Source: Dysgonamonadaceae bacterium
Lineage (GTDB): Bacteria; Bacteroidota; Bacteroidia; Bacteroidales; Azobacteroidaceae
Length of the DNA: 32,822 bases
Assembly: GCA_031267385.1 (NCBI GenBank)
Contig: JAIRZF010000250.1
Location: 1-32,822 of the forward strand
Reading direction: 5' to 3'
Part shown: one piece after another, positions 1-2,774 of the stretch
Numbering within the stretch: the first letter of the stretch is position 1
Layout of the letters: every line of letters starts with the position of its first letter
Made by a program: the position numbers and the translations under genes
The notes under the pieces: model-generated
What the model saw: the letters and a program-made list of their open reading frames with translations, nothing else
Told to the model about the DNA's origin: nothing
Databases searched by the model: none

Positions 1-774
1 ATCACCAAAGACCTGGAAGATGCGATTATCTGCGTCAATGAAAGTCATACGTTTGAGCTTGGAGTCGAAGGAGAAGGTCTGACTTACGAATGGTACTACG
101 GCAACAGCCGCATACTGGGCGCCAATACGAACCGCTACACAATAGTTCATGCCCGCCCGACCGATTACGAGAAATATTATGTGATCGTCTGGAGTAACTA
201 CAACGGTTATCATGCGAGTATTTACAGTAAACAGGTCCGATTATGGGTAACGGAACAGTTGCCTGAAACGCTGCAATTCGAGACCTATCCCGACCCGGCA
301 TTCACGGGAAGTACCTATCATCTGAAGCTGGCAGGCTACTCCGATGTCACGGAATATGCCTGGAGTTACAGCAAGGAAGATGTCACGTTCTCTCCGGAAA
401 CGGGAGTGGTTGGTGAAAACGAAACCTGGGCTACTTTCGGAACATTGTCGGAAGGCACGGGAACGGTTACCGCCACCTTGACTCATCCGTGCGGCACGAG
501 AGAAGCTACCCAAACGATCCGTGTGACTTACCCGACCGGCACCGAGGATGTAACGGACAGTCAGGTTGCGGTTTATCCGAACCCAACGGCAGAAGTGATC
601 CGGATCAGCAACACGGTTTCCAATCAGGTAGTCAGGATCACGGACGTTACGGGTTCTCAGAAATGGAGATACAGAACCCAGGAGGGCGTCACCACGATCG
701 ACCTGACGGGCTATGCTAAAGGGACTTATCTAGTTCACTACGATGGAAAAACCTACAAGGTGATAAAGAAATGA
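1..774 (+). CDS. C-terminal part of a secreted protein with Ig-like region and T9SS type A C-terminal sorting domain (5' truncated by window)
   Basis: Frame 1 is open from base 1 (ITKDLEDAIICVNESHTFELGVEGEGLTYEWYYG...); C-terminus 'VAVYPNPTAEVIRISN...VVRITDVTGSQKW...IDLTGYAKGTYLVHYDGKTYKVIKK' is a classic T9SS CTD. The ORF track start at 181 is an artefact of truncation. Confidence 0.88.
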   Translation: MTKDLEDAIICVNESHTFELGVEGEGLTYEWYYGNSRILGANTNRYTIVHARPTDYEKYYVIVWSNYNGYHASIYSKQVRLWVTEQLPETLQFETYPDPAFTGSTYHLKLAGYSDVTEYAWSYSKEDVTFSPETGVVGENETWATFGTLSEGTGTVTATLTHPCGTREATQTIRVTYPTGTEDVTDSQVAVYPNPTAEVIRISNTVSNQVVRITDVTGSQKWRYRTQEGVTTIDLTGYAKGTYLVHYDGKTYKVIKK

Positions 775-840
775 ATAATGAAAAATGAAAAATAAATAAA
801 CGACGTCGTAAACGGGAAACGCACAAATAGCACGAATAAC

Positions 841-869
841 GCCTTTGCCCGGAGGGCAACAATATCAAT
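841..869. repeat. 29-bp direct repeat copy 1, GCCTTTGCCCGGAGGGCAACAATATCAAT, containing hairpin TTGCCC-GGA-GGGCAA
   Basis: Identical to 1701-1729; flanking bases on both sides differ. Confidence 0.9.
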
Positions 870-1023
870 TTGCGCCAAATGACATGAAAGGGACAAAGTT
901 CTCATAAACAGAGGATGCGGAAAAACGCAAGAATCGGATTAAAAAATGTAGTAATAGACAGAACTTCTTAAAAAAATATTATGAAAAATGTTAAAATTAT
1001 AACGCGGGTATAACAAAAAATAC

Positions 1024-1031
1024 TACATTTG
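1024..1031 (+). promoter_or_regulatory. Bacteroidota -7 promoter box TACATTTG upstream of the DUF2335 cassette
   Basis: Match to TAnnTTTG, about 20 nt upstream of the ATG at 1051. Confidence 0.55.
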
Positions 1032-1050
1032 CGTTGTATCTGTAACCAAT

Positions 1051-1251
1051 ATGATTATGCAATTGATGAAATTAATATTGAGAGCCAACGGCATTTTCCC
1101 TTATGTTTTAGAAGGGCGACATAGGACGTCCGAGTCGTTGGTGTACTTCGGGATTGAAAACGATAAAAAGAATATGAAATCGGACATACGTATTGTTTGC
1201 GGCGATATTAAGAAGTCAGTAGATTTGGCCCGGATAAAATACGTATTGTGA
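1051..1251 (+). CDS. Hypothetical 66-aa protein, translationally coupled to the DUF2335 gene
   Basis: ORF with promoter-like box upstream; its TGA (1249-1251) overlaps the GTG/ATG start of the next gene. Confidence 0.5.
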   Translation: MIMQLMKLILRANGIFPYVLEGRHRTSESLVYFGIENDKKNMKSDIRIVCGDIKKSVDLARIKYVL

Positions 1252-1643
1252 TGGTACAACGACATCAACGGACAACTGGAATTGCTAATCGGGATCATGT
1301 AGCCATTGAGCAAAATACTATTGTGGATGATAATTTATTACCCTCTGCAGAGGAGTTAGAGAAATTGAAACAAGTAGACCCCTCTATCGTACCATGGATT
1401 ATGCAACGGGCAGAAAAAGAACAGGACACCCGATTACAGTTTAATAGGGATCAAATGCGACTCGCCTACAAGGAAAGCGGCATGACTCATTGTGCTTTGT
1501 GGTTTGCTTTCGTGTTGGCCATCGTCGTGCTATTTTTGAGCAGTTTGTTTATATATTTAGGGAAAGAGTTAGCCGGAACAATCTTTGGTGGTGTAGGAAT
1601 ATTGATTCTTATACAGTCGTTTTTAAAATTTGGAAGGAAGTAG
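1248..1643 (+). CDS. DUF2335-like predicted membrane protein
   Basis: 'LPSAEELEKLKQVDPSIVPWIMQRAEKEQDTRLQFNRDQMRLA' followed by two hydrophobic helices resembles DUF2335. Start may be GTG 1248 or ATG 1251. Confidence 0.75.
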   Translation: MMVQRHQRTTGIANRDHVAIEQNTIVDDNLLPSAEELEKLKQVDPSIVPWIMQRAEKEQDTRLQFNRDQMRLAYKESGMTHCALWFAFVLAIVVLFLSSLFIYLGKELAGTIFGGVGILILIQSFLKFGRK

Positions 1644-1700
1644 AAACTAAGAAAATCCTACGAACTAACACCATATCTAACGTTACATGAAATTCAGCTT

Positions 1701-1729
1701 GCCTTTGCCCGGAGGGCAACAATATCAAT
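1701..1729. repeat. 29-bp direct repeat copy 2 (identical to 841-869)
   Basis: GCCTTTGCCCGGAGGGCAACAATATCAAT, same orientation. Confidence 0.9.
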
Positions 1730-1760: not shown

Positions 1761-2774
1761 TTATTTCCTTACCAGCAGCAAAATCTGTTTCAACAAGAGG
1801 TACAATACTTTTGGAGAGCAGGATACAAACGGAGGAAAAAAGATTTTTCGTTTTTGTCCGGTCGTTTTGCAAAGCACAATCCAGCGTCCCCACAGAAATG
1901 CCGTCAGCGCTTCTTGTTTGTAGCGTTTGTATTGTTTATTGGCTGAAAGTAATTTGGAAAACCATTCTCCGGATTTTATTAAATCGGATGAGCTGATCCG
2001 GGTTTGGGTTTCTTTTCCAAAGGAATACAAAGAAAAAGAAAGCCGGTGGATACGCATCATTTCAGGGTCGGGTTCCAATCCCGATTTGTGTAATTCTTCA
2101 CGGATAAGTTTCTCTTTGTTCTGCTCCTGAGTCAGTTGTTTTTCCCTTGAGATATTGGTGTTGTGCCACCTGTAGTACAGTGAAAAATCGGGGATATTGG
2201 CTATTTTCGTTTGTTCGTTCAATCTGCACCACAAGTCGTAATCTTCGGCAACGGGGACTTCATGATATAAATTTTGTTTCAGTATTGAGGCTCTGAAACA
2301 GGTGGACGGGTGTATCAGGGGAACACTGAACAAGAGTGAAATGGAAATAAACGGCGGCGAAGTCTGGTTGATAATTTTTCCCGTAATTGTACCTTTGTCA
2401 TCAATGACATAAGCCCATGTTCCGCATAAACCGACATCCGGGCGCTTTTTCATGAACCGAATTTGTTTTTCAATTCGTGTCGGAACGCAAATATCGTCGG
2501 AATCCATGCGGATGATGTATTTTCCTTTACAAATTTTAATTCCTTTGTTTAAGGTTTTTATCAACCCGAGGTTTGTTTCATTTTCGATATAACAAATCCG
2601 TTGGTCGGTATAGGACAAAATAATATTTTTACTCTCATCCGTTGATCCGTCATTGATAATAATCAATTCGAAATCGGCAAAAGTCTGATTTAGTATGCTT
2701 TCGATGGCTTCACGCAAATATTTTTCTGCATTAAAAACCGGCATCACAACGGATAACTGTATATTTTGCCCCAT
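1761..2774 (-). CDS. Glycosyltransferase family 2
   Basis: N-terminus 'LSVVMPVFNAEKYLREAIESILNQTFADFELIIINDGSTDES...RMDSDDIC' is GT2. Confidence 0.92.
   Translation of the reverse strand: MGQNIQLSVVMPVFNAEKYLREAIESILNQTFADFELIIINDGSTDESKNIILSYTDQRICYIENETNLGLIKTLNKGIKICKGKYIIRMDSDDICVPTRIEKQIRFMKKRPDVGLCGTWAYVIDDKGTITGKIINQTSPPFISISLLFSVPLIHPSTCFRASILKQNLYHEVPVAEDYDLWCRLNEQTKIANIPDFSLYYRWHNTNISREKQLTQEQNKEKLIREELHKSGLEPDPEMMRIHRLSFSLYSFGKETQTRISSSDLIKSGEWFSKLLSANKQYKRYKQEALTAFLWGRWIVLCKTTGQKRKIFFPPFVSCSPKVLYLLLKQILLLVRK

Follow-up and report, generated by a model that had tools for sequence, protein, structure and literature searches.

Near the left end of the window, by which we mean the whole stretch of 32,822 nucleotides that was analysed, two overlapping genes are enclosed by two identical copies of a 29-mer, GCCTTTGCCCGGAGGGCAACAATATCAAT, in the same orientation (Table 1). 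No other exact repeat within the first 4 kb of the window is as long; since the maximum in 200 first-order Markov simulations was only 15 nt, the pair is not a product of chance. An earlier note on this DNA had described the bracket, and the positions, identity and orientation that it gave for the 29-mers proved correct. It was also right that the interior holds nothing beyond a promoter box, an ORF of 66 aa and a DUF2335-like gene for a protein with two transmembrane (TM) segments, that the stop and start codons of the two genes truly overlap (they share one base, TGATG), and that the module sits between a T9SS cargo gene with a Por_Secre_tail domain on the left and the glycosyltransferase gene of a polysaccharide operon on the right. 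The box TACATTTG fits the Bacteroidota type of -7 box, and the pattern TAnnTTTG likewise occurs upstream of the small ORF at three other loci (L023, L071 and L072). The interval between the two 29-mers contains neither an ORF for an integrase or a transposase nor terminal inverted repeats, which speaks against an integron gene cassette or a transposon.

Table 1. Features at the left end of the window (positions count from its first nucleotide)
Feature	Position	Strand	Remarks
T9SS cargo gene (Por_Secre_tail), 3' part	1..774	+	Pfam 7.6e-10
Upstream part of resident composite intergenic repeat (ACGGGAAACGCACAAATAGCACGAATAAC)	811..840	+	Aligns with the context upstream of copies L007, L003 and L009
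Left 29-bp repeat	841..869	+	TTGCCC-GGA-GGGCAA hairpin, then CAATATCAAT; not followed by A[AG][AG]A as in other copies
Putatively inserted segment, 831 bp, GC 37%	870..1700	+	
Promoter box TACATTTG	1024..1031	+	
Small partner ORF, 66 aa, motif NDKKNMKSDIRIVCGDIKKS	1051..1251	+	Long C-terminal helix predicted
DUF2335-like ORF, 130 aa	1251..1643	+	Start at ATG 1251 (GTG 1248 possible)
Right 29-bp repeat	1701..1729	+	Continues with AGAAAATAC, like other family copies
Glycosyltransferase gene	1761..2774	-	Convergent; end of polysaccharide operon; 79% ortholog in G001

The product of the second gene scores 20.2 bits against the Pfam model DUF2335 (PF10097), which is under the 25-bit gathering cut-off, and relatives score above it (26.0 bits for L022 and 28.7 bits for G348). 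The window protein also matches PHROG 3996, 'membrane protein, moron' of the host takeover category, at 1.3e-14. Alignment, hydropathy and a structural model all describe a soluble N-terminal part with LPSAEELEKLKQVDPSIV..RAEKEQ.TR followed by two TM helices. The two hydrophobic segments were found with 19-aa windows starting near 75-91 and 103-110. In the AlphaFold2 model (pLDDT 75), a helix at 33-42 is followed by a long helix at 46-102 that runs into the first TM segment, and then by a TM helix at 106-129. The protein thus resembles the DUF2335 family (PF10097; PHROG 3996), in which the region LPxPEELxxYxxIxPxxxxxIxxxAEKEQxxR precedes two TM helices; it differs in its sub-cut-off score, and the family entries omit the small partner. 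Foldseek searches against PDB and BFVD (medium-confidence models) returned nothing informative, and a PDB sequence match to AopB at E 0.14 was discounted as evidence.

The 66-aa protein encoded by the first gene has no hydrophobic segment by hydropathy. It carries the motif D..N/AL..D(W)...G.D(I/L)R.A that is conserved among the partners (alignments A2, A4 and A8), and the AlphaFold2 model (overall pLDDT 74) places this C-terminal motif on one helix, residues 33-65, with pLDDT mostly above 90. The partners matched no model in Pfam or NCBIfam, and their PHROG matches were to uncharacterised families only. When an HMM of the partner was run over the 12,468 ORFs of all fetched loci, each of its 100 matches lay directly upstream of a DUF2335 gene (100/100); the HMM was seeded with upstream ORFs (17 seeds), so that what is informative here is the zero matches elsewhere and the roughly 48 non-seed loci. 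A partner was detectable in this way at 65 of the 94 distinct DUF2335 loci, and some of the other 29 are contig ends or hold diverged partners. Across 396 whole genomes of the phylum the profile gave 26 matches, 21 of which adjoin a DUF2335 gene. The DUF2335 frame is open ahead of the partner's stop codon in 55 of 63 distinct pairs, and partners without a TM segment account for 61 of the 63.

Homologs of the window protein occur in a Prevotellaceae MAG (L023, 69%), in two genomes of the same family (63% and 33%) and in Porphyromonas phages (31%), and all of them have a small overlapping or abutting ORF upstream despite completely different surroundings. Most of the more distant DUF2335 genes across the phylum are likewise preceded by a small ORF. 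By these comparisons of sequence and gene order, the 66-aa ORF and the DUF2335 gene form a conserved overlapping gene pair, in which the small protein is a true conserved partner. At one locus, L240 (G649:C3), a partner-like ORF is followed by a DNA cytosine methyltransferase-like ORF instead of DUF2335, and the second gene of the pair has possibly been exchanged there.

In the literature searched, open-access papers other than bioRxiv preprints, only two papers name DUF2335, and neither the pair nor a mechanism is described in them; by that measure the pair would be a variant, so far undescribed, of the two-gene phage accessory module. One published label that makes DUF2335 a phospholipase was, we assume, meant for DUF2235, the family of Tle1 phospholipases. 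The label, 'DUF2335 (phospholipase)', stands among T6SS effectors (PMC6267618). The other paper counts a DUF2335 gene among the Dickeya genes that reportedly relate to pathogenicity, and gives no mechanism (PMC8809351).

The DUF2335 gene is sporadic: of 393 Bacteroidales genomes 10 have it, and of 396 genomes across the phylum 32. At least five phyla (Bacteroidota, Pseudomonadota, Bacillota, Actinomycetota and Spirochaetota) have the pair, on a phage, a plasmid or a chromosome. Its chromosomal surroundings include mraZ, which it adjoins at L023, and the interval between folP and the diadenylate cyclase gene cdaA in G019 (L071, G019:C327), where it interrupts an operon that is tight elsewhere. 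The folP-cdaA gap measures 695 bp there; the 17 other genomes compared have -36 to +67 bp. No 29-mer is present at the occupied site, and the inserted pair carries a TACCTTTG promoter box. This is a clean comparison of occupied and empty sites within the same family.

Phages carry the pair at various positions. It lies between the portal and tape-measure genes in Porphyromonas phages, directly behind the endolysin gene in Staphylococcus IME-SA4 (with the integrase next), Streptococcus Javan433 and Lactococcus D6890, beside the integrase in Pseudomonas MD8 and Arthrobacter Gusanita, and among head-tail genes in Klebsiella RAH1. Further phage or plasmid carriers belong to Leptospira, E. coli, Enterobacter, Klebsiella, Alteromonas, Agrobacterium and Azospirillum; in several of the phage and plasmid loci the partner was recognised by eye only. 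Positions behind the endolysin and beside the integrase are usual for lysogenic-conversion cargo. The module spreads horizontally and, on phages, is carried as cargo. Because the position in phages varies, lysis or particle production could be the task of some copies.

The 29-mer is not confined to the module. Its source genome, in an assembly that is 87% complete, holds 11 further copies at up to 3 mismatches (13 including the window pair), and a relaxed pattern finds about 25 other copies. They occur singly, in tandem or as inverted composites. A tandem array on contig C102 has a period of ~56 bp, with copies at 431, 487, 540, 596 and 653, and single strands of the inverted composites ATTGATATTGTTTCCC...GGGCAACAATATCAAT fold with z = -8.3. 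Many copies share a contig with a neighbouring copy, and a gene between them is usually absent. In other genomes, homologous modules read base by base are not bracketed by the 29-mer. The 29-mer is a dispersed intergenic hairpin repeat and not a cassette-specific site. That the module has the 29-mer as a recombination site of its own, as the earlier note proposed, is therefore not supported: genome-wide, the copies are dispersed and common, mostly with no gene between neighbours, which is the first of the two findings that the note had named as counting against its reading. Just past one cluster of hairpin repeats, at L018:900-1150 (C48), a sequence that by eye resembles a cobalamin riboswitch precedes an outer-membrane receptor-like gene.

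As a short extragenic palindrome present in many copies, with strongly folding composites, the 29-mer is like REP and BIME elements. It differs from them in that no cognate TnpA-REP transposase for it was found in its own genome (87% complete). Only two Y1_Tnp matches were found in that genome, and the 29-mer flanks neither. The idea of a resident TnpA-REP with the 29-mer as its REP is not supported, as these Y1 transposases lack flanking 29-mers. One of them, intact and located on C210, has the motif YIENQKEHH, which matches Y1 transposase subclass 1.2, described as being without REPs (PMC6006769). This gene (L107 283-624) is flanked by another short repeated motif, which is AATGAGGTTTG-like.

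The sequences on either side of the two window copies were compared with those of the repeat family against a Markov null. The outer flanks resemble the family context: the fraction was 0.001 for ACGGGAAACGCACAAATAGCACGAATAAC upstream of the left copy, a signal that rests mainly on three other copies (L007, L003 and L009), and 0.022 for AGAAAATAC downstream of the right copy. The inner flanks, with fractions of 0.53 and 0.42, have no family resemblance. After ATATCAAT, A[AG][AG]A follows in all of the 24 other copies scored; the right window copy reads AGAA at this place and the left window copy TTGC. By this contrast between outer and inner flanks, the module appears to be an insertion into a resident repeat, although the upstream signal is suggestive and not conclusive. 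Entry into one unit with a 29-bp duplication and entry between two tandem units would look alike here. The repeat would then be a landing place that lies outside the module itself.

The neighbouring genomes fit into this comparison as follows. The DUF2335 gene and the pair are absent from three other genomes of the genus (G001-G003), two of which are incomplete, and the 5' part of 870-1700 has no detectable copy in its own or same-genus genomes except for a 28-bp AT-rich match. The only contig with an orthologous right flank, in G001, stops 243 bp past the glycosyltransferase gene. On the left, the T9SS cargo gene belongs to a large paralogous family with 45 matches in its own genome, so that its ortholog in relatives is not distinguishable. 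Many of these similar T9SS cargo C-termini (45 matches, including window 1-774) are cut at contig ends, from which it follows that the conserved 3' end of the T9SS cargo genes breaks the assembly; this end may be recombinogenic. The same genome has a second cassette-like arrangement at L111:786-3189 (C242), where a different T9SS cargo gene is followed by a SLFN_AlbA_2/Fic_C gene. Its bracket consists of ~240-bp direct repeats that duplicate the T9SS gene's 3' end, the terminator of that gene and one copy of the same hairpin repeat.

The bracket might also be a coincidence, with a resident gene pair lying by chance between unremarkable members of a clustered intergenic repeat family. The repeat is indeed common and clustered, with five copies in 250 bp on C102, but chance placement leaves unexplained the family-like outer flanks next to unlike inner ones, and a left copy without the continuation that is present in all 24 others; we regard it as unlikely. 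What stands of the mobile cassette that the earlier note had proposed is that the two genes are a unit, that this unit is mobile and that the copy here looks inserted into a repeat, as argued by the flanks, by the genus relatives without the pair and by the folP-cdaA site. What finds no support is the 29-mer as a recombination site belonging to the module. In our overall explanation, positions 870-1700 would be a chromosomal copy of a widespread accessory module of two genes, which moves horizontally, has its own promoter, entered a resident repeat by recombination and encodes a membrane effector and its controller; we are as ready to accept this reading in full as to doubt it.

Carriage by temperate phages leads us to infer that the most likely role of the pair is exclusion of other phages, or abortive infection through damage to the membrane; as a sign of anti-phage defence, being cargo of temperate phages is no more than suggestive. 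DUF2335 would be an inner-membrane effector made of a cytoplasmic helical stalk and a TM hairpin capable of oligomerising. The conserved C-terminal helix of the partner would dock on this stalk, and the docked partner would either keep DUF2335 inactive or couple it to a trigger. Infection by another phage would then lead to a blocked membrane step or to depolarisation. No PADLOC model matched the module convincingly. Membrane-acting exclusion systems of prophages are similar to the pair in that a membrane protein carried by the prophage serves the lysogen; some, such as RexA/RexB, add a cytoplasmic partner to it. SieA of P22 and PdpSau of S. aureus are further examples (PMC10883804, PMC10127798), and PdpSau alters the membrane potential and permeability of infected cells (PMC10127798). 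The pair differs from all three in that no sequence relation was found and in that DUF2335 combines a helical stalk with two TM helices at the C-terminus.

The main rival to a role in phage exclusion is a toxin-antitoxin pair without a phage-specific role, in which the DUF2335 protein would be a membrane toxin and the small protein its antitoxin, the two being kept for addiction or as a stress element. The small size and overlap of the genes, with the membrane protein second, and a sporadic, mobile distribution are consistent with it. At one locus (L087, G627:C38), moreover, the partner motif is fused behind a domain weakly matching SocA_Panacea antitoxins. The 225-aa ORF in question (626-1303 in oriented coordinates) has the partner motif C-terminal to the Panacea/SocA-like domain and lies ahead of DUF2335. 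Validated membrane toxins that are neutralised by Panacea have a charged or coiled-coil N-terminal part and C-terminal TM helices, and they depolarise cells (PMC8832971). The likeness to PanA/PanT therefore comprises the two-gene layout, the membrane toxins with C-terminal TM helices and this one natural fusion; the difference is that the small partner itself has no Panacea domain. The match in the fusion is below the Pfam cut-off (15.5 versus 25.7 bits) and was seen once. No DNA-binding domain was recognised in the small protein, and the position as phage cargo points instead to a lysogen trait. Overall, we consider a toxin-antitoxin pair to be fairly unlikely, with a small but real share of the probability.

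A helper of phage lysis or membrane remodelling, similar to a spanin or an antiholin and with remnants as its chromosomal copies, would suit the Bacillota phages, in which the pair comes after the holin-endolysin block, and one member weakly matches a spanin PHROG (0.022). Other phages, however, place the pair by the integrase or among head-tail genes, and the chromosomal copies keep their own promoter and have no lysis genes nearby, which makes such a helper improbable. A contact-dependent effector/immunity pair, which the earlier note had also suggested, would fit the upstream T9SS cargo gene and the fact that a small soluble protein and a membrane protein can form such pairs, but no delivery domain was recognised in either protein, and because the pair also occurs independently of T9SS loci, on phages as well as in hosts that belong to Bacillota, Leptospira and Actinomycetota, this reading is disfavoured to the point of being very improbable.

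Returning to the module as phage-borne cargo with a membrane effector, we propose tentatively, with slightly less than even confidence, that it represents an undescribed, phylum-crossing system of phage defence or toxin-antitoxin type, in which a two-TM effector and a small partner without a model in the databases are spread by temperate phages, plasmids and insertion into repeats. Since most DUF2335 genes travel next to the gene of one particular small protein, what had been an orphan membrane protein becomes half of a two-component module. Since the partner is missed by Pfam and NCBIfam, annotations hide this system. The copy in the window illustrates how such modules can enter the short dispersed repeats of Bacteroidales chromosomes.
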